Assembly (NCBI GenBank): GCA_018343915.1
Contig: JABRWF010000001.1
Location: forward strand, 4,712,001-4,776,000
Direction: 5' to 3'
Length of the DNA: 64,000 nucleotides
From: Agroathelia rolfsii
Lineage: Eukaryota; Basidiomycota; Agaricomycetes; Amylocorticiales; Amylocorticiaceae
The translations under genes and the position numbers were made by a program. Below, piece by piece: positions 9,864 to 60,765 of this stretch (the first letter of the stretch is position 1; every line of letters begins with the position of its first letter). Under the pieces are notes generated by a model, which saw only the letters and a program-made list of their open reading frames with translations, did no database searches and was not told the origin of the DNA.

Positions 9864-11519
9864 ATGCCATCACCTTATACTAGCCAAAAACACCCTCCGC
9901 AAAGCTCAATCTCATCGTCCTTGTCCAGCTCTACTGCCAGCGGCTCTCGCAAGCGCCCAGCGCCGCCCTCAGAGCAATATGGCCGCACCACGCCCCCGCC
10001 GGCGCCTACAATGGGCGACGAGGCAATGGAAACGGACAATCAGATTAGTCAGGCAACAATCTCTTGCACCTTTACACCCCCAGCTACATACGTCCTCAAT
10101 CAACTGGCCACCCTAATTGGCCACTATGATCAACATGACTCCACTCGACTGTCAGTCACTGACTGGAAGGAGATCTGCACTGAAGTAATCTCAACCGTCC
10201 TCAACTCCGTCACCATGGTAGATGCAGATGATGACGACTCGGACGCCCGAGCGGTGAAGGAAGTCAAACACTTTCTCAAATCGGGATGTGATGACCTCCA
10301 ACGCCTAGGAGAGGATGAAACCAGTCTCGACACTGATGGGTATCCGCCAGCACTCTCCACCCCTATCCAACCCATCCCAACACCCTCCTCGCAGCCGTCG
10401 ACCTTTGAGAACAAGATCTTTGAGACCCTCCGCGACATGAGGAGCCACATCCTCAAGCTAGAAAATAAGGTCTTTAGCCAAACCCCTCGCCACCCCCAGC
10501 AACAGTCGATGCCAAACCCTCCTGGGAACCAGAAGCCCTCTCCGAAAAATCCCGCGCCCCCTACTCTTGTGGCCAAACCAACATACGCTCAGGTTACATC
10601 CTCCAGCCCGCCAGCTGTCCATCAGAAACAACCTACTCGACCACCCGAACATATCAGATATGTGGTCCGGTTCCATGGCAAACCACGCCCCCTGGAACAG
10701 AGGAGTCTCCCCATCAACATGACCACTGCAATCAACAATCGTCTCAAAGACATTCCCACCTCCAATGGTCTTAAAGTCCTCGGTGCCAACTGGAACCCAG
10801 CTGGTAACCTGATTCTGACCTTCCCTCCCAACACGTCACACAACCTTATCAGGACCCACTTCCCTACTTTCCGGGATGCTCTTTGCCTCACCGACAATCA
10901 AACTATCTTGCATGACACCAGGTGGTCCAAACTAATCCTCGCAGGTGTCCTAGCGCGCATCCGCCCATCAGATGAAGTCTTTAGCGAAGAAGCCCTCCAC
11001 GAGACTTTCCTGACAAACCCAACCATTCAGAAACTCCGCATCACCCAGTACCCACGATGGCTGCGACTGCCAACATCCATTGAAGGCCTCAAATCCTCCG
11101 TGTCCTTCGCTTTTGAGGATCCAGATGGCTCCGTGGCTAGGTCCCTTCTTAAGCAATCTCCCAATATCTTCATGTTTGGCGCACCGGTCAAAGTGAAGCG
11201 ATGGGTGGACAAACCACGTCTTCGTCAATGCTCAATCTGTTGGAAACTTGACCATACTGCCTCTAGATGCAGACGTGACCCTCGCTGCCGCCTATGCGGT
11301 GATCCACACCCCGAAAGCAATCACCGCCAGAAATGCAGCAAATGCAAAGCTGAGAACCGCCCAGAGGAGGCCACCTGTAACCACCCCAACTGCTGCGTCA
11401 ACTGCCGCGAACCCCACGAGGCTGACTCGGCCAACTGCACAGAACGCCGCAAGTTTGCTATTCCAACCTCAACACCTGCCCAACCTCTCACCACAGCCAA
11501 CGACGACATGACCTCATGA
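9864..11519 (+). CDS. LINE ORF1 protein, zinc-knuckle RNA-binding (Gag-like)
   Basis: 551 residues. The N-terminal third is rich in serine, proline and glutamine. A central region (about 270-450) probably forms an RNA-binding fold. At residues about 455-530 there is a cysteine cluster: a clear CCHC knuckle (CSICWKLDHTASRC), then CRLCGDPHPESNHRQKC and further C/H pairs ending in CVNCREPHEADSANC. Such knuckles bind the element RNA to build the ribonucleoprotein for retrotransposition. The stop codon overlaps the start of ORF2 as ATGA. Start chosen at the first ATG, one base inside the element; an upstream start would lie outside it. Confidence 0.9.
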   Translation: MPSPYTSQKHPPQSSISSSLSSSTASGSRKRPAPPSEQYGRTTPPPAPTMGDEAMETDNQISQATISCTFTPPATYVLNQLATLIGHYDQHDSTRLSVTDWKEICTEVISTVLNSVTMVDADDDDSDARAVKEVKHFLKSGCDDLQRLGEDETSLDTDGYPPALSTPIQPIPTPSSQPSTFENKIFETLRDMRSHILKLENKVFSQTPRHPQQQSMPNPPGNQKPSPKNPAPPTLVAKPTYAQVTSSSPPAVHQKQPTRPPEHIRYVVRFHGKPRPLEQRSLPINMTTAINNRLKDIPTSNGLKVLGANWNPAGNLILTFPPNTSHNLIRTHFPTFRDALCLTDNQTILHDTRWSKLILAGVLARIRPSDEVFSEEALHETFLTNPTIQKLRITQYPRWLRLPTSIEGLKSSVSFAFEDPDGSVARSLLKQSPNIFMFGAPVKVKRWVDKPRLRQCSICWKLDHTASRCRRDPRCRLCGDPHPESNHRQKCSKCKAENRPEEATCNHPNCCVNCREPHEADSANCTERRKFAIPTSTPAQPLTTANDDMTS

Positions 11520-14500
11520 GCCAACTTCGCCCACTACGCATCCTCCAACTCAATGTAGCACGCTCAAACGAGCGCATGCACGGTCTACTAAACTCACTTT
11601 CAGATTTCGACATCCTCCTCCTTCAAGAACCATGGTATGGCCGTATTGGCACCTCACAATCATCAGACAACCCACAGGGCACCCCAATCTTTGGTACCGT
11701 GGCAAATATTGCATGGGAAGCTTTTACTCCCGACCCGCCTCCTGATGGCCGACCAAGGGTCACCACATTTGTACGCAAATTCATCCCTCACCTTACATCC
11801 CAACCCCGCCCAGACATTATTGGCTCGTCGGATATAATAGCAGTCCATTTCACTTATGGCTCACTCTCCTTCCTACTAATCAACATCTACAATGCTGGCC
11901 CAGGTCAAGATGCACCCTCTGCCCGCACTCTCATAGACACCAATCTAGACATGCTCCTCCCCACAGCAATCGCGGGAGACTTCAACCTCCACCACCCTGC
12001 ATGGGCGCTTACGTCACAGCCACCTGCTCGGGCCCCCTCAACAACAGCATCCGAGATAGCTGAGTGGAAAGACCTATACTCTCTCACTATTGCAAACAAC
12101 CTTGACAAGCCAACACGTCGTGGCCGCTCCGGGCAGCAAGATTCGATTATCGACCTCACTTTCTACAATCCAGCAGCCGTTGAAGATGATATCTTCCAGG
12201 AATGGGAGTGCCGAGAAGACTTGGCCCTCTGGTCTGACCACAACGCCATTACGTGGTCAGTTCGGGCCAACGACAACTCCATCTCCGAAACCCCCTATCC
12301 CGAATCACCCTATCGCATTGATCCAGCTAGAAAAGCTGCCTGGTGCGAAGCTTTCTCTACTATAATCAACAACCTGCCACACCCCCTGCTCCTCTCATCA
12401 CCCGAGGAGATAGAAGAGGGGGCATATATTATTCTAGACGCCATTCAGAAAGCCTCCTCCACCACAATGCCCCAGCAATCTATCCGCACGCACACCCGTG
12501 CACCTTGGTGGAATGAGGACTGCGATACCAGTCTATACCAGCTCCGCCAGGCTCCCAGAAATCAACATAAATGCTACGCATCCCGCTTTCGAGCGGCAGT
12601 CCGACATGCAAAACGCGACTTTGCCATGAAGGTGCTAAGCGAGACACCCGACACCCGGATCTGGGACCTATGTAAATGGGCCTCAGGCCGCCGAGCGAGG
12701 CGTACGCCCCCAATTCGCACAACAGATAGGATTGCCATTGAACCAGAAGACCAGTGCCAAGCATTTGCTTCGGCTTTCTTCCCGCAAACCACCCCGCCTG
12801 TCTCCCCATCCCAGCCGACTGACCCCCCCTGCCTCCCGCCTCGCCCTTTCCCTGACATCACTCAAGACGAGGTAAAAGATGCCCTTAAGGACGCGTCCAA
12901 CACCTCTGCTCCAGGCAAATCAGGCATATCGTACAGGGTCATCAAATGGGCCTTTGATGAACAGCCCCTACTCCTTACAAAGTTCTTCAATGCATGCATC
13001 CATAACCAACTTCACCCCCAGGCTTTTAAAACAGCGATAGTGGCTGTTGTGCCTAAGCCCCGCAAAACTGATCGCTCTAACCCCAGATCATATAGACCTA
13101 TTGCACTTCTTGAGTGCCTAAGCAAAACCCTTGAAAAGATCATAGCCCGTCGAATTATGTATGAGGTAGGAAGGTATAACCTAGTCCCATCCAACCAGTT
13201 CGGAGGTCGCGACAAGTCTTCCGTTGTTGATGCATGCCTCACCCTAACCCATGATATCCAAGCAGCCTGGCATAACGGCCTTGTAGCATCAGCCCTGGCC
13301 ATAGACGTCAAAGGTTACTTTGACAACGTCAATCATGAACGCCTAGCTCATACACTAGAACTTATGGGCTTTTCACCTCTCATTGTTGGATGGGTTCGCT
13401 CTTTCCTATCTTGCCGCCATGTCTCTATACGGGTAGATGGCTTCACATCCCAGCCTATCCCACTAGCTGGCGTAGGCATCCCTCAGGGCTCTCCAATATC
13501 CCCCATCCTATCCACTATCTATACAACACCAATTCTCACTTGCCTTGACTGTCTCCCTAATACTAGCCTTAGGGCTTACGTAGACGATGAACTTGCCCTA
13601 GCAACTTCTAGCTCTATTGAAAGAAATGTAATGCTGCTTTCAGAAGCATACCACATCATTCGTACCCGCCTTCAGGCCCTTGGCCTAGACATTGATGTGG
13701 GTAAGGTCGAACTTATTCACTTTACACGCTCTCGCACATCAATCTTTGATCTTCCCCCAGTTAACATTGGCCTTGCTGATACCCCTCCCCAACTTATTCA
13801 ACCAATGGCAGTAATGCGCTGGCTTGGAGTCTTCTTTGATCGAAAACTCTCCTTTCGACCTCACGTTGAAATAATGGCTAAAAAGGCAAGGTCTACTATT
13901 GCAGGACTACGTATCCTTGCCAATACCTTACGTGGCCTTAGTGTAGCCAATGCACGCCTACTCTACAAAACCACTATTATCCCAATCCTCACCTTTGCAT
14001 CACCAGTGTGGTATACTGGGACCCGCCAAAAGGCTCTACTAAAGATTCTTGAACAGGCCCAAAATGAAGGCCTTCGATGGATCCTTGGGGCTTTTCGCAC
14101 CTCCCCCTCAGCCGAAATGCACCACATTGGTGCTATCCTCCCGATCCCGCACCTGCTAAAGCAACTCTCAACAAAGGCAGCTATACGACTTCGATCCCTC
14201 CCTTCTAACTCTCAAGTTCTTATCCGCACCCCCCCTACATGGGAAGAGGCTCAACCAAATGTTCCCGTCCCACTTCACATAACCCCTACGTCATCTAAAC
14301 CACCTACCGTTATACACAGACTAGCTAGCCTTTCCCACCCTAATGCAGAACGCACCTTCCCATACCACTCCCCTCCATGGCTTCAACACTACTCCCGGGG
14401 AAACCGCCTCTTAACTCAGACCCCTAACCGCAACCTTTCAACATCTGCCCGGAGGAAATATATTGAAGATTTAAAGAACAGAGTCCAGCAATATATGATA

Positions 14501-15424
14501 GATGAATCAACACTACTCATCTTTACGGACGGTTCTAGACTACCCTACCATGGCCATAAGCGAGCAGGAGCAGCCTACGCCGCCTTTCACAAGGGTCTTG
14601 AGATAAGCTCTGGGACCTCATGCATGGGCAAACGTGCAGGCATCTATGATGCAGAAATGCTTGCCCTAGCTGGTGGCGCAAGAGCCGCAGCAGCCTATGC
14701 AAACAAATATCCACTCCTCTCACGCATCCTCTTCCTCGCTGATAATCAATCGGCAATTTCAACAATTACAGACACCTCAGCCCACCCAGCCCAAATCTAT
14801 TCCATCCTTTTCTGCGAAAAAGTAGACGAGATCCTCAATAAACTACCCCAATGCAAAATTACAATTCAATGGATCCCAGGGCACCAGGGAATCCAAGGCA
14901 ATGACCGTGTTGATACGCTTGCAAAAGAAGCTGCAAGAGGAGGTGCCAACCCCATATTCCATTCATCTATATCATGGGCATGCGAGAAAGCCAAAGCCAC
15001 CGCACTTAAAGATTGGCGCTCGGAATGGGCTACCCTTCCACACAATAACTTAGCTGCCATAGCTCTTCGCACACCACCTTCCACTAAACTTACCCCTTTC
15101 CACCGCAACTTTAATGGCCGTCGGGATGTACACACCCGAATAATCCAAACTATCCTAGGCCATGGCTTTCGAGGTGACTACTATGCCCGCTTTATTCCCT
15201 CTGAGTCAGTCTTATGCCCATGCGACAACTCTACTTTCCAAACACGTGACCACATTATTGCTGACTGCCCCCTTTACGACAGTCAACGACACTACATTGT
15301 CAAGGCCTCTAGTAGCCTCTCCTCCCCAATTATCCTTAGTACACACAAAGGCCTTACAGCACTAGCGAAGTTTGTATCGGGCTCAAATGCCTTTACAAAA
15401 CTTGCTAGATCAACCTTACAATAA
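11516..15424 (+). CDS. LINE ORF2: endonuclease / reverse transcriptase / RNase H
   Basis: 1302 residues. Residues 1-240 form an APE-type endonuclease: LQLNVARSN (N13), LLLQEPWYG (E38), AGDFNLHHPAW near 153 and WSDHNAITW near 238. The reverse transcriptase spans about 450-760, with YRPIALLECLSKTLEKI, the palm aspartate in AIDVKGYFDNV, GIPQGSPISPIL and the catalytic YVDD near 687-690. RNase H follows at about 1000-1130 (IFTDGSR, DAEMLAL, FLADNQSAI, WIPGHQGIQGNDRVD), with all four expected acidic or histidine sites visible. A C-terminal Cys/His motif (CPCDNSTFQTRDHIIADC) lies near 1234. It nicks target DNA and copies the element RNA in place. All catalytic motifs are intact. It begins in an ATGA overlap with ORF1. 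Confidence 0.95.
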   Translation: MSQLRPLRILQLNVARSNERMHGLLNSLSDFDILLLQEPWYGRIGTSQSSDNPQGTPIFGTVANIAWEAFTPDPPPDGRPRVTTFVRKFIPHLTSQPRPDIIGSSDIIAVHFTYGSLSFLLINIYNAGPGQDAPSARTLIDTNLDMLLPTAIAGDFNLHHPAWALTSQPPARAPSTTASEIAEWKDLYSLTIANNLDKPTRRGRSGQQDSIIDLTFYNPAAVEDDIFQEWECREDLALWSDHNAITWSVRANDNSISETPYPESPYRIDPARKAAWCEAFSTIINNLPHPLLLSSPEEIEEGAYIILDAIQKASSTTMPQQSIRTHTRAPWWNEDCDTSLYQLRQAPRNQHKCYASRFRAAVRHAKRDFAMKVLSETPDTRIWDLCKWASGRRARRTPPIRTTDRIAIEPEDQCQAFASAFFPQTTPPVSPSQPTDPPCLPPRPFPDITQDEVKDALKDASNTSAPGKSGISYRVIKWAFDEQPLLLTKFFNACIHNQLHPQAFKTAIVAVVPKPRKTDRSNPRSYRPIALLECLSKTLEKIIARRIMYEVGRYNLVPSNQFGGRDKSSVVDACLTLTHDIQAAWHNGLVASALAIDVKGYFDNVNHERLAHTLELMGFSPLIVGWVRSFLSCRHVSIRVDGFTSQPIPLAGVGIPQGSPISPILSTIYTTPILTCLDCLPNTSLRAYVDDELALATSSSIERNVMLLSEAYHIIRTRLQALGLDIDVGKVELIHFTRSRTSIFDLPPVNIGLADTPPQLIQPMAVMRWLGVFFDRKLSFRPHVEIMAKKARSTIAGLRILANTLRGLSVANARLLYKTTIIPILTFASPVWYTGTRQKALLKILEQAQNEGLRWILGAFRTSPSAEMHHIGAILPIPHLLKQLSTKAAIRLRSLPSNSQVLIRTPPTWEEAQPNVPVPLHITPTSSKPPTVIHRLASLSHPNAERTFPYHSPPWLQHYSRGNRLLTQTPNRNLSTSARRKYIEDLKNRVQQYMIDESTLLIFTDGSRLPYHGHKRAGAAYAAFHKGLEISSGTSCMGKRAGIYDAEMLALAGGARAAAAYANKYPLLSRILFLADNQSAISTITDTSAHPAQIYSILFCEKVDEILNKLPQCKITIQWIPGHQGIQGNDRVDTLAKEAARGGANPIFHSSISWACEKAKATALKDWRSEWATLPHNNLAAIALRTPPSTKLTPFHRNFNGRRDVHTRIIQTILGHGFRGDYYARFIPSESVLCPCDNSTFQTRDHIIADCPLYDSQRHYIVKASSSLSSPIILSTHKGLTALAKFVSGSNAFTKLARSTLQ

Positions 15425-37107: not shown

Positions 37108-38346
37108 ATGTTGGAAAATGCACCTCCAACTGCGCCTGGTGAAATTTCGGTCTATCTAGCCTTAATGTTCTCGGCAGTACTCTATGGTCAGGTACCTGTC
37201 CTTATAATATATAGTATAGAGATTTTAATATCAGCTTGTTGCAGGTGTATATCTGCTACTATTCCTAATTTCTGCTTACTGCCTTCAAGTTAATACATAT
37301 GTTACTCTCTGGCAACGGCGATTTTATCATGCTTTTGGATTTCTCGTTCTCCTCCTCAACACTTACTTCTTTATCTCACGGGCTGCTGCAAGTCTGTTGA
37401 TGTGGATTATTGATCGCAATTATCCGGGGGGACCACTGCAATACTTCTTTCTCTGCTCATCTTTTGGATGGTTTGTTACCGGCAACCTCACACAGGCCGT
37501 CGCAAACTTGCTTACCGACCTGCTCCTTGTGAGTCTAAACAGAGACTAAGTAAATATAATACTAAGTATACGTATGGTTTTAAGATTTATCGATGCTACG
37601 TCATTTATGGGAGTCAACTATGGGTTGTGGTATTCCCTTGTTCATGTTCTGTTGTGTTTATAGGTAAGCATTTAACTTTGTGATGCTAAAATTTCCGTGC
37701 CTATCGTTTGCTGATACAAAGTAGTACTTTATATCGTGCTTGAAGTAAATCAAGTAAATGGAGGGTATTTATCTGCAACAGCAGGAACAACTATGGTCGT
37801 TGCCTGCAATAGTATGACAATCGCTGTCAACATCATTGTCACTGGCATGATATCTATAAGACTCTACATGGTTCATAAACAAGTCAAGAAGGTTCTCGAC
37901 AAAAGTCTAGCAAGAACATACACAGGAATTGCGGCCATTCTCATCGAGTCCGCTCTTCCTTTCTGCATTCTCGGCATTCTCGCTTGCATCACTGAGTACG
38001 TGGGCTCACTCACCGACGAGGTATTTGAGCTAGTGTGGTACTGGTCATGTGTTGGTATTTTTAAAATCTTTTAGCTGAGCAGTGCTTTATTAAAATAATT
38101 TACTTCTAGGCTATTGCACCTCAAGTAATCATCCTGCGCATTGCTCTAGGGCATGCATGGAACAGAAACACACTTTCAGAGCTTATGACGAAAACCAGTC
38201 TTGAGTTTGGTACTCCAAATTTGGATTCGGGCTCACCGTATGTAAGAGAGGCTGAAGAACAATTGCAGCGTTTTACAGTTCCTCAGATGCAAACGCGAGG
38301 TACTTCGACACATATTTCATTTTCGTTTGCTTCAAGTTCTTCATAA
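37108..38346 (+). CDS. Seven-span membrane protein, receptor-like, Agaricomycete-type
   Basis: Exons 37108-37186, 37245-37528, 37585-37663, 37725-38050 and 38110-38346 give 334 residues. Seven hydrophobic segments can be counted: around SVYLALMFSAVLYGVYLLLF, FYHAFGFLVLLLNTYFFI, the stretch before IYRCYVIYG, QLWVVVFPCSCSVVFI, SMTIAVNIIVTGMISI, YTGIAAILIESALPFCILGI, and the last running into APQVIILRIALGHAW. YRCYVI, the ILIES motif and the LRIALG end are hallmarks of a large, little-studied basidiomycete family of receptor-like topology. Function unknown. The fourth donor (TGT|GTTGGT) is weak but matches in position and phase the intron of the paralogue at 48.3-50.0 kb. Lies in an AT-rich block, convergent with a small secreted peptide gene 627 bp away. 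Confidence 0.75.
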
Positions 38347-43514: not shown

Positions 43515-46500
43515 TTAGTCCAAAGTATGCTCAATACCCTCCGCGATATTTTCGCCCCGATTAAGTCTCTCGATAAGGTGGTCGATCTTGACTCTGTGCA
43601 AGCGATAATGTTCCTGCCAGCCTTTCCACGGGTGGTGTGGGTACTACATGTAATAAGTCAGCAAGTGAAAATATCAAAAGCTCTCAACCGCAAGCACAAA
43701 GGAGGAAGACGGAATGGCAGAAAAAGAGAGAACACGTAGATATAGTAAAACTCAATACTTACCAGCCTTGCAAACGCCTGAAAGACACTGTCAATCGTAC
43801 CGTCACGTGGCGTACGGAAGTATCGTGCTAGCAATACATCATCTCGGCGGCTGTACCGCATCTTCTTTTCTGGCGGGGGTGGTAATGGCTCATCGCCATC
43901 GCCACGCTCGAATTCGTGTTTGTGCCGGCGCCAATACTTCATCCATGATGCGCGCGAGTGGTGTGGCGCCTGAAAGGTTTTGTGTCATGGTGATGTACAG
44001 TGACGAAGGAAAAGAGTAAGTTTATCAAATGTAAAGATAAATTTTGTTATTTCTCGCCTTTGTAGCCACATCCTTCCAAAATGCGACCATATCCGTCTGC
44101 CCTTGTGCTCTGAAAAGAAGAAAGAAGCAAAATGAGCCTAGATGCGCCACTTACGGGGAAAAAGAGAAGAGATCCTTTCGCAGCCAAGAAAAAGAAGCGT
44201 GGAGGTTACGAGAATACATACCTCCGATAGGCCATAAAATTTAACAGAAACCTCGTATCCTCATCCGTAAACGCGACGCCTTTACCAGTCGTGCTCCTGA
44301 ACAACGACCGGGGCGGACTTGGCGTGCGCTCAGGGGGATGTGATGGTCTCTGGAGAAGTTGTTGCTGCATGACATGTGCAGAAGAAGATGATAATGTAGG
44401 ATCATGATGATGCTGGTAGATCCCTTGATCTTCGTCATCAACGTCGTGGTGGTCGGGCGAGGTGGAACGCTCGATGGCCATGGCGTGTCCGCCGACGCGG
44501 ATGCCATGTTTATTGCAATATCGTCGCCAGGAGTAGAAGCTGAACGGAAGTGGTGCAAAAGGAACATTTCAAACTGGTTCTGTAAAGAAAATAAAGAATC
44601 ATTACTGACGAGTGGTGAGGTGCCTAGTGAATAACATAATGGGTGGAAATCAAAAGCATAGGAAAAGCGTTGATCGTTCACATCAGGAACCCCGGCAGCA
44701 TCAATCACAAGTGAATCCAAAATACCTTGATAGCCACCTTTTCACAGATCTCTCGTAAACTGGAGGCGGGTAGGCAAGAAAAAGAGAGAATCAAACATCA
44801 CTTCAGCTATCGAAAGGTAGAAAAAAAATACTGCACACCTTAACACAAGTCCCTGATCCTGACAATATTGTATATAGTCATACAAGAACTGCTTATCCTC
44901 GGGGGTATATACGTTGCCTCCGTACGCACTCTTTTCAATCCGCCGTGGCGGGCTCGGCGAGCGCACACGTGCCTCCGTTCGGTTTGCGACCAAGTTCGAG
45001 GCTGTCGTCGTAGGCTGTGATCGATGAATCATCATCACATTTTGTTTTTCATTCAAAGGAAAAGTGGTAAGGTAAATATGTGTAGAAATGATAATCATTA
45101 GCATCGCAGAAGAAAAAAGAAAAAGAAACATGCACATACCGAGTACCTCGCCATGGCATGGTGAGCACGACCCGAACCATGCCCATGCATCGTGGCCGGT
45201 TGTGACACACCATCGACGATCTCGTCCTCCATCTCTTCGTCCTCATCTTCCTCATCCCTCTCCCCACCACCAAAAATAAATCCACCACGATCGCCACCGC
45301 CAACGCCGACACCAGTATCCTCGTCATCCTCATTATCATCCTCGGCCATATCATCATCATGCAGGCCAATAGGGTTAGGATCCATCTCGGGCTCTGCTCC
45401 TAACATACCGGCGGTATTCAGATGGTGTTGGTGTGGATGTGAATGGTATGGATCAGGCTGATGATGGTGATTCACTAGTTCATGAACGGCATGATGATGC
45501 GGTGTCGGCGGTGCGGGTGGTGCAGGTGCTACGTGTTCTTGCCCATAGTGGTGCGCATACGGCTAAGTTGATTACAGTTTTGTTGTTTCAGTATAAAACG
45601 ATGGCAAAGTCAGTATACACAAAAGAGATATATAGAGCTTCCCCATCTTTCCTTTTTTTTTCAAAAAAAAAAAAGAAAAAGAAAAAAGAAGGCAAGAGAA
45701 AGTACTATACTCACTGCACCATAGTATCCACCTGGTGCCGGGGGCAACATCCACGGTGCGTGCGCAGCAGTAGCCGCAGGATGGAATCCATACCCAGCAG
45801 CAGCAGCAGCAGTGGGAGAAGGCATATGATGATCCATCACCACGCCAGGATGATGCGCATATGTCGTAGCGGTGTCCCATCGCGGCTGTTGTTGCTGCTG
45901 CTGCTGTGGAATCATGTGATGCTGAGGTTGCTCCTGTGCCGGTGCCGGTGCTGGGGCAGGCGGTGGTGGTGGCGGCTGATGCTGAGTGGGTGTGGCGGGG
46001 CTAACATGAGGATGGTGCCATGGAGGCGGAGGTGGCATCAAGTTCTGGTGGTGCGCATGCGAATGATGCTGGTGTTCTTGGTGGTGATGAGGCAGTGGTG
46101 GAGGGGGTGGAGCTGTGTAGATGTGGTACGGGTAAGCATGCTGGGAGATGTAGGAGACGTGCGAAGGCGGGGGTGCGGTTGTGTCCATGGGTGTCGCTGC
46201 CGTTGGTTGAGGAACCATCGGCTGTTGATGATGTTGTGGAATGTGATGCTGGGGGTGTTCATCTACCATGCCGTGACTAGCAGATGGCACCACAGCAGCG
46301 GCAGCAGCAGCCTCAAGAGCTTGTTGGTGTTGTTGCTCCTGCTGCTGCTGCTGCGTCACAGCAGACGTGCCTACACCTCCTTCCCGGGGCAATGTAATGC
46401 TCCGATCTTCATTCCTGTCATAGCAATAAAGGAGATGGCAATCAAATGAGTAAGATGCAATATCGTCAGGTCTAGAGAAGAGTACGAAAATGTGTTCACA

Positions 46501-48330: not shown

Positions 48331-50008
48331 TCACCACCCTTTCGTAACAGGCAACGGCGCCCTCTTCCTCTGACCCATCCCGACCCCTACCAAATCCGGA
48401 TCATCCTCATCCTCATACAACAAGTCCATGTCCACCTCGCCCGGATTCGTGCGTTGCAGCTCGCCGGCGATGGACACATTGTTCATAAACTCGAACGTGA
48501 TGTGTGTATCGCAAAATGTCGTGTTGTTGATCTCTTTGCTCGTCTCCGCTGCACCTGTTTGGTGAAATCGTGTGCCAGGACGACGAAGATGGTTGAGGGG
48601 AGGGGCGGCGGCTTTAGCTTTGTCGGAGAGTGAGGATGGTTCACCGGAGTTTTCTTCGTCGGAGTCGTGATGTTGGTGGTGGCTGCAGCCAACTTCGAGA
48701 TTGGAAGGGCCTGGGGGGGAGGTGATGTGATGATGGTGATGTGGCGAGGAAGGATAGCACATGAGTCGTGATAGCGTTTGGTTTGTCCATGCGTCACCCA
48801 TAGCGATTCGGAGAACGATGAGCTGGGATGAAACGACCTAGATATGTAAAGAAAGAAAGTTTAGAGAAAAATAAGACGCTAAAGACGAAGGAATATACAT
48901 ACACACGCTGATGTCCACAAAATAATGATCGCAAACTTGATACTCGCGTTCGCCAGGTCAAGCGCACATGACGCAACGCCAAAGACACAAAACAATGCAG
49001 CAGATTCAATCAAAATAGCAGGGATGCCCGTGTATGGCCCTGCTACTATGTGCCATTGTTCTCGTGAGACGACGGCGGTGGAAGAGGAACCAGGAGCGGG
49101 AGAAGTGGGAGGATCTTCTTGCTGCTGCTGCAGCTGTTGTTCTTGTTGTTGCTGGTGTATTCGACAGCAGTGGGCACAGTACAGCCGCCGACGGGTGATG
49201 ATGAGTCGAATGGAGATCATGGCCGTTAGAATGACATTCGTAGCGATGGTGGTTGCGTACATGGCAATATTGAGCGAGGTACGGGTGGGGCTATCTTTGG
49301 ATACGACAAGACTGAAAATGAAGAAGACTGATGGTGGAGTTGCATTGAGTGCCTGATTCTCCGAGATAAAGGATTGAAATGGCTTACAAGGGAAACATCC
49401 AGCACACATGAAAGGGATTACAATGGACCATAGTTGACCTTGGAAGATAACATAGCATCGATACATCTGTATACAAACATACACAAACGTGTATCACAGT
49501 TGTAAGTAGCAAGCCATGATGTTGTCATATATATCCAGGAACGGAGGGAGCAATCAAAGCACTGCTACTTACAAGATGAGCATCCACAAGCAAATTAGCC
49601 AGAATTTGCGCAGCGCTGCCAGCAATGTAATACGCAAAGGAGCTAGCGGTGTCCTGAAAGTAGTCCCATGCGGCAACATCGCCGTGCGTGCTGTTGTCAT
49701 GGCCGATCCACATCATCTGTCCGGCAAACGCGCGAGAGGCGAGGTAGTATGTGTTGAGGATGAAGAGGAAGACGCTGTAGTGGATGTAGAACCAGCGCTG
49801 GGAGCGGGTAACATGAAGGCTGGAGCGGAGGGTGTAGATGGAAAAGAAGAAGAGGAAAATGTAGATGCCTGTTTAGCGTAGGGCGGTTATGTGAGCCATG
49901 AATGAAGCAGGGCAGGTGGAGAGAGCGCTTGCCGTATATGATCGAAGAGAGGACGATGCCGACGAATAACGAGGCTTCATGGACGGATGAAGCTGCTACA
50001 TCTGCCAT
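48331..50008 (-). CDS. Seven-span membrane protein, paralogue of the 37.1-kb gene
   Basis: Exons on the minus strand: 50008-49933, 49868-49573, 49466-49388, 49327-48903, 48837-48331; 460 residues. The order of motifs matches the 37.1-kb protein: VGIVLSSIIYG, FYIHYSVFLFILNTYYLASR, YRCYVIFQGQLW, TNVILTAMISIRL, YTGIPAILIESAALFCVFGV, VVSSQLIVLRIAMGDAW. All four introns fall at the same places and phases, and exon 3 is 79 nt in both. Differences: a long Gln-rich loop between segments 5 and 6, and a 150-residue cytoplasmic-type tail with His-, Ser- and Asp-rich parts ending in basic residues. The first intron uses a GC donor (TACG|GCAAGC). Start chosen at MADVAASS because it gives the same N-terminal length as the paralogue. 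Function unknown; possible receptor. Confidence 0.75.
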
Positions 50009-54444: not shown

Positions 54445-55067
54445 TAACATCTCAGTGCTAACGTTACCAAAAATTCTAATTGACATATACGGACAATTTG
54501 CCGCTCGGTTTTACGGGGCAGCAATACTAATCATGGTCTACCTGCTGCTGGATAAGATCGCTGCTTTATCGAATGCACGGAGGTGTGCAAGTTCCGACTG
54601 CATCACAGTATCATCAATCATGGACGCCGCCAGCCTGCTCTCGGACCCAAATCACCGTACCTGAGAACGCCGACTTTACTCAGTGACATGATTGGATTGT
54701 TATATTTGGCTCACGATGCACCCATACAACTGTCTACGCTCAAGAGCATCGGGGCCGAAATCTACCATTGACGTCTCTTCAGGTTGCTGTGTCGATAATC
54801 TGAATCTTTGAATCCAAGTACCAAGGTCTCCAGCTCAGTTCTTCGGATCTTTCACTGGCAGATGCGTAGAGTTGATATCATGAATGCATCGGCACTATAT
54901 CCCATGATTCCAAAACGAATCTGACATACAGTGAATGAAATATGGTCCCTATCTACAGCCTAGTCATATAAAGGGTGCTGAGGGCGAAGTCTCTAATGCT
55001 TAAGGACGGCTCGAGTCTTATCCCATCAAGCCTCTCTCTCCAAGTTAGTAATCACTTCTCCAAAAAA
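54445..55067. other. Intergenic before peptide gene 1
   Basis: Weak similarity to the end of dispersed repeat A near 54553-54585 (GATAAGATCGCTGCTTTATC, then GAATGCACGGA). No gene supported. Confidence 0.35.
54965..54984 (+). promoter_or_regulatory. TATA region of peptide gene 1
   Basis: CATATAAAGGGTGCTGAGGG, about 100 bp before the ATG. The word TATAAAGGG.GCTG recurs upstream of peptide gene 3. Confidence 0.5.
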
Positions 55068-55426
55068 ATGAGGTCTCTCTTCGTTTTTGTTCCTACAATT
55101 TTGTTAATGTTCATGGCTAATGGTGCACCTATGCTCGAGGTAAAGGTATGTGTTTTCATCGTCCACTCAATAGAATTATTGTTGCTACTTGCAAAAGAAA
55201 TTTAATTGGATGTCTCAACCGATCTATCCGTTAGGACACAACCGAAAAAAGACAGTTCAAAGATTACGCGAAAGACGCCCTAATTCCTCGTATCAAGGAT
55301 ATCGGCGAAGCATTTGCGGTTAACTACCTCTCCACTCGGGCTGAAAACGTTGACGAGGCTTTCTGGGTCGATTATCAGCTCTCCACAAACGTCGACGAAT
55401 CATTCGTGGACAAAAGCTCGTACTAG
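55068..55426 (+). CDS. Secreted peptide precursor, family member 1
   Basis: Exons 55068-55145 and 55235-55426 (phase-0 intron) give 89 residues. A signal peptide occupies residues 1-20 (MRSLFVFVPTILLMFMANGA), followed by PMLEVK at the exon end. Exon 2 starts DTTEKRQFKDYAKDALIP. The KR pair followed by Q-[IF]-x-D/N-Y is shared with member 2, and could be cut by the Golgi protease Kex2. The remainder has two loosely similar segments (YLSTRAENVDEAF and YQLSTNVDESFVD) that look like a worn repeat. No cysteines. No known domain. The shared exon layout and signal-peptide exon with members 2 and 3 make it a real gene despite its size. Confidence 0.65.
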
Positions 55427-56641
55427 TAGTACACTAGCCACAGTTTTAAAGGAGCTATATAAGAGGCCAACTTGAATATGTAATAACTTGAACCTGTCAG
55501 TCAGGAGTCAGGATATCTTTTTTTTATCGAATAACACTTAACACACTTTAATCTGGGAAGGATTTTATAAGGCTGTACACCCAAAGCCTATCTTGTAGTA
55601 TGCAACCTCAGAAACCTAGCTTTTTCTAAATGAAGATGAAGCTGAAAAAGGAAAAAGAGAACGAGGAGTGGCCCAGTACTAAGGAATTAATTAAATCCCA
55701 TGAGAAATCAGAATAACGGAAGCAGATAGAAGTTGCGGAAACACGACGAATATGGACAAAACTTAAAGCTTGAAGTTTGAACTTGACGAGCTTGAGGTTT
55801 TGAGTCAGTGGTAATTGCTGCAGTCAGACAAGTGTCTAGGGTAGACTCCCTACCGGCACATGCCTCCTTACTCAATCAAGGTGAAGATGAAGATGCGATA
55901 CCAGGACCGATCCCTTCAAGGGGATTATTTCGGTAGCTTCAGTCCTTCATCTTTAGTCTCTAATTCCAGACTACTGTTAGAATCTGCCACGTTGACACTC
56001 AAACCGTTATGGATTGATAATTCTCTACTTCCAAGTATCATAGTCGTTTATCATGACTTGCGCAGTGGAGACAGGATTAATCTTTCTCAGTCCATTACGA
56101 CCCAATCAATTGTTGTACATGTAATGTGCGCTCTCACCTCGATACACCATCTTATGCAACGGAACCCAAATGCGGAGTTAAATGATTATTGACAACTTGC
56201 TTTTCGACATTCTAAGGCTATGATCCGTTCTTCCGGCTTAAATGGCAGTTCTTCTCCGGATCTTTGAACTGCAGGGTATTGTGACTTGCATACTCTATTG
56301 AATTGCTTGAGATATGGCTCTGAGACGTCAATGAGTTCCGGCTATCATGTATTATGCATCATGTGTCACGTACCATAGCTCGAAATGAGAAATAATGGAA
56401 GCGCTTTCTTGATATACAATATATAAAGAATATGATGATCGCAGAAATATTGCGTGATTCAGGTGTCAGTTGACCGCTTTCTCTGTGAATCCGAAGTTCA
56501 ACTCAAGCCCGAGTTCTCCTGACTTTTTATTTTTTATTTTTTGCTATGCATAATACGATTACATATAAAACCGCTGAAGATACATGGTATATAGGCATTG
56601 GTAGCCCCCAGCTTCACTCTCGTTAGACGTCTTTAACTACG
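55427..56641. other. Intergenic between peptide genes 1 and 2
   Basis: AT-rich. A 110-codon frame at 55860-56192 has no recognisable domain and no supporting splice or promoter context. 56574-56580 is the TATA box of gene 2. Confidence 0.45.
56570..56586 (+). promoter_or_regulatory. TATA region of peptide gene 2
   Basis: TACATATAAAACCGCTG, some 65-70 bp before the ATG; the trailing GCTG is shared with the other two peptide genes. Confidence 0.45.
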
Positions 56642-56956
56642 ATGAAGTCCTTGTTTATAGCTATTCCCGCCATTCTTGCCATGTCTATGGCTCTTGGTGC
56701 ACCTGTCCTCGAAGAAAAGGTTTGCATTCCAAGTCGTCCAGTTATAAGTACTAATCTAAGTGGTTTGTAACATGATCACCAGGGTATAAACAAAGAGAGA
56801 CAGATAGAAAATTATTATGCACCTGTCTACAAGGATTTCGTCGAAGAAAGACAGATAGAGGATTATTACTCGCCAGTCTACAAAGACTTCGTTGAAAAGA
56901 GGCAGATAGAGAACTACTATGCACCGGTCTACAAAGATTCTATCAATTTAGACTAA
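56642..56956 (+). CDS. Secreted peptide precursor with three tandem 17-residue repeats, member 2
   Basis: Exons 56642-56719 and 56783-56956 (phase-0 intron) give 83 residues. A signal peptide occupies residues 1-20 (MKSLFIAIPAILAMSMALGA), followed by PVLEEK at the exon boundary. Exon 2 is almost entirely three copies of a 17-residue unit: RQIENYYAPVYKDFVEE, RQIEDYYSPVYKDFVEK, and RQIENYYAPVYKD ending SINLD. Junctions read NKER, EER and EKR, so only the last is a full Kex2 dibasic site. The Tyr-rich core (YYAPVY) between basic sites resembles the layout of Kex2-processed repeat proteins, which include fungal RiPP precursors of the dikaritin type, alpha-factor-like pheromones and repellents. 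None of the modifying enzymes of dikaritins is in this window. Function is inferred from architecture only. Confidence 0.75.
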
Positions 56957-57539
56957 AGCAATACCTTTAATTAAACTGGTACTGACTGTTCAACGCCAAG
57001 GTAAGGCAAAACATGCGTATGCGCTAATTCAGACATTTACATTTACGTGACAGATTTGTTTGTCTCAGAAGGAAGAAAGGAAGACGAAAAATTACATAAT
57101 ATGGGAGAATTAAATATCAATCGAATATATGATCTCAGATTTTGTAGTATTTGTAGTATACGTATAGGTGAGATTCTGGATATTGGAAGGGCTTGAGGAA
57201 CCGCGCACAGATGCACATTAGCTTGGGTGCTTGAAGAGTCTGAGAGTGAAATTTGGATTACTGGGAGTTATAAATGGATCTAAGCAGTCTTACTGCTCTT
57301 TCATAACAAATTCAACGTAGGACTCAGGTGAATGCACCCATATATCTATCAGGATGTTGAATGTCTGATTAGGTTGAAAACCAAGTTATAGACTACATAC
57401 TATATTTAAATCCTTTCAACAGGGTCTAGATCCCTTGCAGCGCATGCAAGAGATGGAGTACTGGAAAATCCAGTGCTCTTTATAGGGGAGGGGACTGAAA
57501 AACCCTTTTATTAACCTCAAGGAGTTCCATGAGTATACT

Positions 57540-57775
57540 GTTAAAATCCATCCGACTCGTGGCGCACAGCCTAATTCGCTGGAATCATTCGATTGGCTAC
57601 GTGTAGGGATACAAACGCATAGGGTACATCGAGTAAAATCTACATGCACATATACTAAAGCAACAATAAACTTTCACGAAAAGAAAAAGAACGGAGTACG
57701 GTAGCAAGACATAAACGGAACGACGACGCTTGTGAAGGCGGCTCAAATAATCGGATTCAAATACCGATATATACA
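57540..57775 (-). repeat. Dispersed repeat B, inverted copy 1
   Basis: The reverse complement matches 60040-60262 over about 220 bp, at roughly 80 percent identity by eye. It shares CGTACTCCGTTCTTTTTC, CATGTAGATTTTACTCGATG and CCCTACACGTAGCCA. Confidence 0.8.
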
Positions 57776-58242
57776 CCCGCAGTGCCAATCCACATTCTGC
57801 TGGAATTGGAATGAATCTTTGACATCTCTATCGGTAATATCTGGCCATTATATTTTCTTGGCAGTTAGTGGCCCCTATCAACAAGGTATGCCATCGCCAT
57901 CAGAACGTTCAATGTAGAGAGTCAGCAATCTCTCCAGGTTACTTGACGCTCCTTCAATTCTTTTGCCAACGGTTCCTTTGAATGTTCAAATCTCCCGATA
58001 TTTGAGCCATGGAACCCGGTATCATGACATGCCTGGAATTTTACTGTTGATTTTTGTGATGCATCATACCCCATCATAAAAAACAAGAAATGATAGGACA
58101 TTGCATTGAAATGCAATATATATAGCCATCTCAAAAACATCATACGGCTGAAAGGTAAATTGATCATTCTCTTTCTGCTATTGAGCTCCAAACTGAGTAC
58201 AAGTCTAAACACATACAATGATCTCTCTATACTTTGTGAAAA

Positions 58243-58258
58243 TATATAAAGGGCGCTG
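58243..58258 (+). promoter_or_regulatory. TATA region of peptide gene 3
   Basis: TATATAAAGGGCGCTG, about 90 bp before the ATG, nearly the same word as in gene 1. Confidence 0.5.
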
Positions 58259-58337
58259 TATCTATGCTATCTAAACATTGGCATTTTGGGGCTTTCTCTC
58301 TTCCGTCTTGTTAGAAGCCTTTTTTTCTTCATGAAAA

Positions 58338-58699
58338 ATGAAGTCTTTAATTGCGATTCCCGCCATTCTTATCATGACCATGGCCGTCGCCGCACCTGTT
58401 GTCAAAGAGCAGGTTTGTATTCTATCACTTGCCAAAGTCATGGCAGTAGCGAGGATACTATATTGCTGCAAGGTATTGATTCAAACCGGTCTCACTCTTA
58501 GGGTGTACTCGGAGGAGAACAGATAGAAGATCATCATACTAGTACATTAAAGAGCTACCTAATTACGGACGCGCAGGCGGCTGTACCTAAGAGAGCACGA
58601 GATGTGGACCTAGTATTCTCTACCAACTACACATTTACTGAAGTAACCAAACGGAATACCGGCGCACTACCACTTGACATTACTAGTCAGATTAGTTGA
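58338..58699 (+). CDS. Secreted peptide precursor, family member 3
   Basis: Exons 58338-58412 and 58502-58699 (phase-0 intron) give 90 residues. The signal peptide MKSLIAIPAILIMTMAVAA is nearly the same as in member 2, followed by PVVKEQ at the exon end. Exon 2 starts GVLGGEQIEDHHTSTLKSY: the QIED motif of member 2 is kept but the preceding basic pair is replaced by GE. A KR pair occurs later (AAVPKRARDVD), with another in VTKRNTG, so processing would release different products. An ATG seven bases earlier (58331) is in another frame and would not give a signal peptide. No cysteines, no known domain. Confidence 0.65.
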
Positions 58700-60765
58700 T
58701 GCTGTCTGATGTCATCCTGTGATGTGTTGGAGATTAGGGTTAGTCAATTCTTGTATTGATCTTATGTATACTGCAGTTTTGAAAACTTATATATGAGCAG
58801 GAGATACATATACCTTCCAAGGAAATTTCCTAAAAAAATGACACGAGACTGGGTAGAAGAAATTGAGAATCGATCAATATTTGCGATATACTAGTGTTCA
58901 ATGTCTACTAGTAGTCTCCAAATATCCAAACACAAAATATAGACCGATTCTCAGATGGCAAAAAAGGGGAACACAAGGACTAAATAAACAACTAAGCCCA
59001 TAAAGGTGCCAGTCGCCGTCCGAATGAATAACCCCTAAAGGTGACTCCAAAGGGAATATATGCATTCATCAACATTTCATGGCATAGATTCATGGCATAT
59101 ACTCCAATCTAATCACCTGTTTGATTACCGAGGTCTTGTGGCTCCTTACACACTAAATTATAGGCACAAACAGGCCTAGTGCAGCTGCAAGGACTTTTGC
59201 ATATATACTATACACTCAAGAGCGAAGCATTAGGAATCCGGAGCTTGTGATTAAAAAAAAAAAAACGAGTTAATTGCCAGTGCATGATAACTAACCCTGA
59301 ACTTTTGTGACTTATCCCAAATTCAACATAGATTTGTTATCAGCAGCGTCTCAGCCTATTATCAACGAAACGCCTGAAACATATCCGATAGTAGTATGAC
59401 AGATACTAACCATGTGTTGGAGGGAAATTAATAGTTGACTGTATACCAAAAATAAATCAGACAATATGACTGCCGTCACCAACAAGATGTCCCTGATTAG
59501 ATTTATCCAACATGTAAGAACAGTTGGATATCCACGAGTTTTTGAGAAATCGGCACTTTGAACACGGGCGCCTATGTATATGGGCATATTCAAACCATTT
59601 GATTCTAGTTGACTAAAACTGCAAGCCATTGTAGTGCCGATATTTTGCGGCTAAATTTTTAATTATAATATTCCGGTGTTTAAATCTCAAAGAAGTACGG
59701 ACCAAAGTAGAAAAAGTAAGAAGGATTATTGTCATCGAGTATAGGTAACCGGCCTTGATGCTCTTCTGTCATGTTGTAATCAGTTTGTATGAAGCACCCC
59801 CAAAGATTGACAGAATATTGCAATGTATATACCTGTCCTCACTTTATGAGAAAATGCTTCTGTAAGAGCAAGTGGTGGATTATACGACCATAGAGAAAAT
59901 TTTCTATTAGAGTGGTTATTTTCAGGGAATTAATGCGCACAAGCTCAGAGCTACTAATATCCATAGTGCAAAAACGTTAACTAATAGGAAGTCAGCGCAA
60001 GAATAAATAGATGGCAATTCAGTATTTAGTGCTTGTTGATATTTGGATCCGGGTATTTGAGCCGCCTTGGCAAGCGTCGTCTGAGTCATTCCGTTGATGT
60101 TTTGGTACCGTACTCCGTTCTTTTTCTTTTCGTGAAAGTTTAGTATACATGTATATGCATGTAGATTTTACTCGATGTACCCTATGCGTTTGTACCCCTA
60201 CACGTAGCCAGTTCAGCGATTTAATCGAGTTAGGTTGCGTGCTGCGATGGATTATAACAGTGCCAAATGCAGGTTCACAACTCTCGGAGCTAAGGTCGAC
60301 GTGTCTGCACCGAATGGGTCACGGGGACGGAAATTACTAGTACAGATGAGGGTGATCCTAAGTGCTTTGGTGGCAAGCCTTGCTCATTAGCTTGAGAGCA
60401 CACTCCTCCCACAACTGTTTGCTTAAATCCTTCAAGTTGTACTCTAGGACAATTCCAGAACAATATTTTACTACAAAGAGCAGCAACTGCACTGAAAGCT
60501 CGGGCATTTTCTACGAATAGCTCCACAGGAGCATTGGCCAATGATCTGATACATAATAATCATGATGTTGACCCATATTGTGGTTCCTCAAATAATATTT
60601 TTGGGGAGTTGCGGTAGATCACTGACAGAGAGCGGAGGAAGGCTTTTACAATATATTATCATCTTCTCAGGAAGCACAGCCACAGACCACTGATGGCGGA
60701 CTGAAATTCGAGACTGGCTCCGAGTCTGCCAGCTTGCGTACTGGTGATCTCTGCTCGTAAACACC
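58700..60765. other. AT-rich intergenic region
   Basis: Contains inverted repeat copy 2 of repeat B. The minus-strand frames at 59351-59629 and 60290-60541 show no domain. The last 150 bp are probably SRP68 upstream sequence. Confidence 0.5.
60040..60262 (+). repeat. Dispersed repeat B, copy 2
   Basis: Plus-strand partner of 57540-57775, so the two copies form a large imperfect inverted pair around peptide gene 3, about 2.3 kb apart. Confidence 0.8.

Follow-up and report, generated by a model that had tools for sequence, protein, structure and literature searches.

Three related genes and their exon layout

A stretch of 64,000 nucleotides from the basidiomycete Agroathelia rolfsii (assembly GCA_018343915.1, contig JABRWF010000001.1), here called the window, carries a cluster of three related genes for predicted secreted peptides. 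The window is C1:4712001-4776000 in a genome of 37.7 Mb that is assembled into eight contigs (C1 to C8) and may be incomplete. Each gene consists of a first exon encoding a predicted signal peptide, a phase-0 intron, and a short second exon free of cysteine, as a first-pass annotation had described them. The genes are called g1, g2, and g3, and their copies on contig C2 are called g1', g2', and g3'. The features of the cluster, in window positions, are:

54967..54980 (+): TATA box and GCTG word of g1; GCTG lost in the C2 copy
55068..55145 (+): g1 exon 1, signal peptide and APMLEVK; repeated at C2:4497732
55146..55234 (+): g1 phase-0 intron, GTATGT...TTAG; junction of the C2 copy spanned by public protein P0001
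55235..55426 (+): g1 exon 2 with stop; KR site before Q, then R before AENVDEAFWVDYQLSTNVDESF; ratio of non-synonymous to synonymous rates (dN/dS) 0.42 against the C2 copy
56564..56576 (+): TATA box and GCTG word of g2
56642..56719 (+): g2 exon 1, signal peptide and APVLEEK; repeated at C2:4500556
56720..56782 (+): g2 phase-0 intron, GTTTGC...CCAG
56783..56956 (+): g2 exon 2 with stop; 9 of 11 differences from the C2 copy synonymous
56801..56851 (+): g2 repeat 1, QIENYYAPVYKDFVEER
56852..56902 (+): g2 repeat 2, QIEDYYSPVYKDFVEKR
56903..56953 (+): g2 repeat 3, QIENYYAPVYKDSINLD
58243..58258 (+): TATA box and GCTG word of g3; GCTG lost in the C2 copy
58338..58412 (+): g3 exon 1, signal peptide and APVVKEQ; repeated at C2:4503307
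58413..58501 (+): g3 phase-0 intron, GTTTGT...TTAG
58502..58699 (+): g3 exon 2 with stop; KR before ARDVDLVFSTNYTFTEVTKR and, past the next predicted cut, NTGALPLDITSQIS; ARDVDLVFSTNYTFTEVTK identical in the C2 copy

Exon 1 comprises 26, 26, and 25 codons in g1, g2, and g3, and exon 2 comprises 63, 57, and 65. The introns (89, 63, and 89 nt) all begin with GT and end with AG. Splicing is needed: without it, translation of g1 and g2 would hit an in-frame stop in the intron, and that of g3 would enter exon 2 in another frame. The best 11-residue stretch of the predicted signal peptide has a mean Kyte-Doolittle hydropathy of 2.05-2.69 in the five family members tested of 11. The signal exons had been described as encoding nearly identical peptides; those of g1-g3 are in fact only 44-72% identical. 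When the three signal exons were used as queries against all six frames of the 64-kb window (BLOSUM62), no fourth site scored 32 or more.

The second exon of g2 is a three-fold tandem repeat of 17 residues per unit, which had gone unmentioned. The three repeats encode near-identical peptides, QIE[ND]YY[AS]PVYKD, and most silent sites differ between them. The residues before the repeats are KR at one and Glu-Arg at the other two. Peptides beginning with Q after KR had been anticipated. Such a site is present in g1 and at one of the three g2 repeats; the other g2 repeats follow Glu-Arg, and the KR sites of g3 precede A and N.

Arms of an inverted repeat, about 200 nt long and 83-93% complementary, flank g3 (window 57557-57763 and 60040-60247). 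Related pieces also lie nearby on C2, and the arms possibly belong to a small mobile element.

Second copies and further members

The C2 copies keep the order of the window genes within a 17-kb syntenic block, where the main pieces of window 46.8-64 kb match C2 at about 74-89%. In g1' the KR is absent and the R before AENV is retained. In g3' the peptide ARDVDLVFSTNYTFTEVTK is kept; a small insertion then shifts the frame, the chain terminates early, and the last KR and the C-terminus are gone.

More distant relatives are found elsewhere in the genome. The gene at C8:2528555 and the one at C2:969693 (minus strand), called C2b, each encode MKFF...AP followed by an intron and a chain with SVDTGYGIKYTIIDVDER. 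Their surroundings are syntenic across 10 kb, in three pieces at 82-87%. Both second exons carry two cysteines; thus, the absence of cysteine is no trait of the family. A DNA pattern of the signal exon, allowing at most three mismatches, gave eight sites, six of them known and two new on C6, and none with the reversed control. The first new gene, C6a (3162.5 kb), encodes KR followed by VPEIDALYSPKDYTIIDVAERNMNNAYAFESYTTTIITSR and has a second copy at C7:3207.2 kb. The second, C6b (3160.6 kb), no longer has a splice donor at the expected position, and a search of 10 kb of C7 revealed no counterpart other than the C6a copy. Because the pattern overlooked g1, g1', and the C7 copy, further members may exist.

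In all, 11 genes were found, at three chromosomal sites plus second copies. Ten of them keep a first exon of 25-30 codons and the phase-0 intron. The first-pass annotation had named the lack of any intact orthologue or paralogue with this layout as grounds for rejecting the family; the genome holds seven further genes with the same layout, of which g3' is C-terminally shortened. It had also counted a TATA box with a trailing GCTG as part of the shared architecture. This is true of all three genes in the window and does not extend to the whole family, since GCTG lies near the TATA box in 8 of 11 members and is missing from g1', g3', and C2b.

We infer that the paired contig copies are the two haplotypes of one dikaryon or hybrid. 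Alternatively, they may stem from an ancient duplication. Other genes show a similar picture. The only other copy of a bZIP-like gene (window 28.9-30.2 kb) is on C2, at 92%. Copies of an RNA polymerase subunit domain on C1 and C2 resemble each other in structure, and one match on C3 lacks a listed partner. The contig sets C1/C2/C8, C4/C5, and C6/C7 behave as homologous and are about 10-20% apart where aligned; for C4/C5 this is judged by coordinates only, on which their sites for UstYa-type genes look reverse-collinear. C2 matches C1 as well as C8, which suggests two haplotypes that differ by a rearrangement.

Constraint on the encoded peptides

Five pairs of copies were compared: g1, g2, and g3 with their C2 copies, the C8 gene with C2b, and C6a with its C7 copy. 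The binomial P values below, for a deficit of amino-acid changes in exon 2, are uncorrected and ignore mutation bias.

g1: dN/dS 0.42 in exon 2 and 0.34 in exon 1; 28 of 43 exon-2 differences non-synonymous; P = 0.027
g2: dN/dS 0.04 and 0.18; 2 of 11; P = 7e-6
g3: dN/dS 0.39 and 0.81; 13 of 22 (50 alignable codons); P = 0.049
C8: dN/dS 0.14 and 0.10; 2 of 6; P = 0.031
C6a: dN/dS 0.20 in exon 2; 7 of 15; P = 0.008

Amino-acid changes in exon 2 fall below the neutral expectation in all five pairs, strongly in g2 and modestly elsewhere. The family had been called rapidly evolving, which suits g1 and g3 and not g2; C8 and C6a lie between. The g2 peptide is also kept in each repeat. In the first 12 codons, five synonymous changes (on about 6.3 sites) separate repeats 1 and 3, which encode the same amino acids there. 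Repeat 2 differs from each of them by six synonymous and two amino-acid changes.

The mature parts, first described as strongly diverged, share a weak similarity. Those of five paralogues were compared in ten pairs with 2000 shuffles each. No shuffle reached the real score for g3-C8 and C8-C6a, and 10 to 16 did so for g1-g3, g2-g3, g2-C6a, and g3-C6a. The remaining counts were 74 (g1-g2), 155 (g1-C8), 234 (g2-C8), and 1493 (g1-C6a). Thus, six of the ten pairs beat 99% of shuffles. The best stretch is an aromatic core in five of these six and a QIED stretch in g2-g3. The core, a pattern drawn by eye and post hoc from the sequences, reads roughly [IV][DEN]xx[YF]x3-4[YH]; in many cases an acidic stretch and a Glu-Arg or Lys-Arg come next. 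Its form in g2, C6a, and C6b is Y[AS]Px(1-2)Y.

Transcript and homology searches

Nine members were searched against a protein database, and among 978 candidates the sole match was P0001. This public protein has 77 residues, comes from four contigs, and bears the source tag "lgn", which we take to mean Logan assemblies. It equals g1' from residue 14 to the end at 76 of 77 residues and spans the exon junction. Because the genomic intron has an in-frame stop, the source is a spliced transcript or something copied from one. The intron is thus removed in a transcript, for g1' only. A search with g2 alone gave no such match (21 candidates, all with E above 1).

Five members searched against the protein database gave 2982 candidates and none at E 10 or better. 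With no collection of fungal genomes among the targets, these searches found no orthologue in another species. As the number of fungal proteins in the database is uncertain, missing homologues say little. Nine of the 11 members gave nothing over the cut-off in Pfam. Below it were DUF3951 in two members and Cauli_VI at E 0.18 in one; a single chain in the PDB at E 0.79 was taken as chance. A literature search on core words and signal-peptide families returned nothing relevant, the core-word results being judged by title and the start of the abstract.

A probable family of processed peptide precursors

The genes probably form a family of secreted precursors that are cut after Arg by a kexin into short linear peptides and work like the known Kex2-processed repeat proteins (KEPs). 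The signal peptide would route the chain into the secretory pathway. A kexin-type protease would then cut after Arg at Lys-Arg and, less classically, at Glu-Arg, releasing short linear peptides with spaced aromatic residues. The g2 peptides would be about 15-17 residues long with an N-terminal Gln, which by analogy with Coprinopsis cinerea might cyclise to pyroglutamate. Predicted products include (pyro)QIENYYAPVYKDFVE, SVDTGYGIKYTIIDVDE, and ARDVDLVFSTNYTFTEVTK. Their role is likely extracellular, perhaps in self-signalling or in interaction with other organisms. A kexin-type P domain (PF01483) is encoded at one place on C6 and at one on C7.

The suggestion of secreted peptide precursors, made earlier from the sequence, is strengthened by the signal exon, the amino-acid constraint in every pair, the spliced public sequence, and the Arg-bounded repeats of g2. 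Linear products are favoured because no UstYa match lies near any member. Results from C. cinerea point to comparable processing: linear KEP peptides have been detected there, many with N-terminal pyroglutamate, and several products made in Pichia seem to come from cuts after a single Arg (PMC9769878). In the same report, deletion of six kep genes had no visible consequence, and no antibacterial activity was seen for the synthetic peptides that were tested.

Several observations weigh against processing of this kind. Just one of the three Arg sites preceding the g2 repeats is dibasic. Kex2 disfavours Glu at P2, and Glu-Arg is a poor site for it. The KR of g1 is lost in its C2 copy, as are the last KR and the C-terminus of g3, and g1, g3, C8, and C6a lack tandem repeats like those of g2. 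Outside g2 the P values are modest, from a test that ignores mutation bias, and exon 1 of g3 is little constrained between copies. Some of these points would suit mature chains that act whole, as effectors or wall proteins with their Arg sites uncut: the poor Glu-Arg site, the KR sites missing from g1' and from the end of g3', and the loose evolution of g1 and g3. Such small secreted proteins are nevertheless an unlikely explanation, as the period of the g2 repeat coincides with the Arg sites and C8 and C6a keep Glu-Arg at the core ends in both copies.

It is still less probable that the products are cyclic peptides of the dikaritin type, with core tyrosines cross-linked by UstYa-family oxidases encoded elsewhere. 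The cores are rich in Tyr, UstYa exon matches are numerous in the genome (44 listed), and repeat 2 of g2 contains the EDY of the ustiloxin-type core EDYXI, though without the I. KEPs with linked UstYa genes also contain Tyr more often, 65.6% against 38.2% (PMC7329392). However, such linked genes lie on average 3.09 genes away according to the same survey, whereas none of the 44 listed UstYa (DUF3328) matches is on C1 or C7 or within 600 kb of C2:0.97, C2:4.50, C6:3.16, or C8:2.53 Mb, where the other members lie. Neither a UstYa-cyclised product nor a UstYa-linked gene cluster for cyclic peptides is supported. Finally, decaying or neutral open reading frames that merely resemble genes would account for the shortened g3' and the lost splice donor of C6b. 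That account is extremely improbable given amino-acid changes below neutral expectation in all five pairs, a spliced public sequence for one member, and an exon layout kept in 10 of 11.

Comparison with known peptide systems

KEPs. Like the KEPs (Le Marquer 2019, PMC6339444; Umemura 2020, PMC7329392; Vogt 2022, PMC9769878), the family has a predicted signal peptide, a short chain, and, in g2, three tandem Arg-bounded cores with N-terminal Gln. The lack of a nearby UstYa gene is also no departure, as 22% of KEP genes have one (PMC7329392). Unlike them, g2 has one dibasic site and otherwise Glu-Arg borders, and its paralogues carry one or two diverged cores and are joined by the shared signal exon and intron position. 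Of the members compared, g2 has the three or more tandem repeats of at least eight residues that the KEP definition asks for, and g1, g3, C8, and C6a do not. The survey rule as given in PMC6339444 and PMC7329392 places repeats between KR, RR, KK, or RK, and g2 has one KR and the rest ER. By these rules the family does not belong to the KEPs. Inspection of the paralogues by eye showed none of the motifs EDYXI, DADAATXYV[A/V]D, YVW[G/A][G/S], SPPHKT, QKLKVD, and XSDW that PMC6339444 gives.

As both large surveys, as described, require at least three repeats between dibasic sites (PMC6339444, PMC7329392), a family with one repeated gene and mostly Glu-Arg borders would be missed. A less strict screen, like the one in PMC9769878, might pick up g2. 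The signal exon that the genes have in common ties together diverged peptides that searches with mature sequences would join poorly. If Glu-Arg processing is true, the number of fungal secreted peptides has been underestimated.

Dikaritins. Precursors of the ustiloxin, phomopsin, and asperipin type likewise have short Tyr-containing cores behind a signal peptide, and g2 repeat 2 shares their EDY. The present genes differ in having no linked UstYa gene and no full EDYXI core, as that motif is given in PMC6339444.

Rep1 repellents. These peptides of Ustilago maydis are secreted and Kex2-processed, as cited in PMC6339444, which is also predicted for the present chains; the likeness is one of description.

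Pheromones. Ascomycete alpha-type precursors are similarly secreted, with Kex2-type sites and repeats. They differ in their regular STE13 spacer of XA or XP before the repeats; here, VP or AP follows KR in C6a and its C7 copy only. The mating pheromones of basidiomycetes are lipidated CaaX peptides, and none of the present chains ends in CaaX. A mating-type B locus was also considered as a candidate and set aside: STE3 (PF02076) had no genome match over the cut-off and one weak match on C4, in a search that intron-split genes could escape.

Neighbouring genes and other features

Some 6 kb upstream of g1, on the minus strand, is a gene for a multi-pass membrane protein (window 48882-49493 and its surroundings). 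That exon encodes three hydrophobic stretches and has no Pfam match. Relatives of this gene cluster at C1 4.75-4.92 Mb and C2 4.48-4.73 Mb, which hold 13 of 30 loci (42 matches less 12 merged as further exons, with weak matches up to E 0.36 included). The peptide genes on C8, C6, C7, and at C2:0.97 Mb have no close relative of it, the nearest being about 256 kb away, on C7. Thus, one of the three chromosomal peptide-gene sites is near such genes, and about 1.7% of the genome is within 15 kb of one; this proximity was examined post hoc and is a lead only. It is very unlikely that these observations reflect a signalling system in which the clustered membrane proteins are receptors, distinct for each paralogue, for peptides cut at Glu-Arg and Lys-Arg and unrelated to the lipidated mating pheromones. 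A related membrane-protein gene, likewise lacking a Pfam match, is also found at window 37715-38071 (plus strand).

Two pairs of UstYa matches on C2, at 1966834-1969023 (minus) and 1992456-1994645 (plus) and at 2092135 (minus) and 2188269 (plus), have equal scores and opposite orientation, which suggests a recent inverted duplication. Dense UstYa clusters at C4:381-392 kb and C5:3940-3951 kb are candidate gene clusters for cyclic peptides.

Elsewhere in the window, a long open frame at 11426-15421 (plus strand) belongs to a non-long-terminal-repeat retrotransposon with endonuclease, reverse transcriptase, and RNase H. At 44209-45242 (minus strand), a region without a Pfam match contains two similar stretches, FTDEDTRFLLNFM and YTPEDKQFLYDYI, perhaps a repeated domain.

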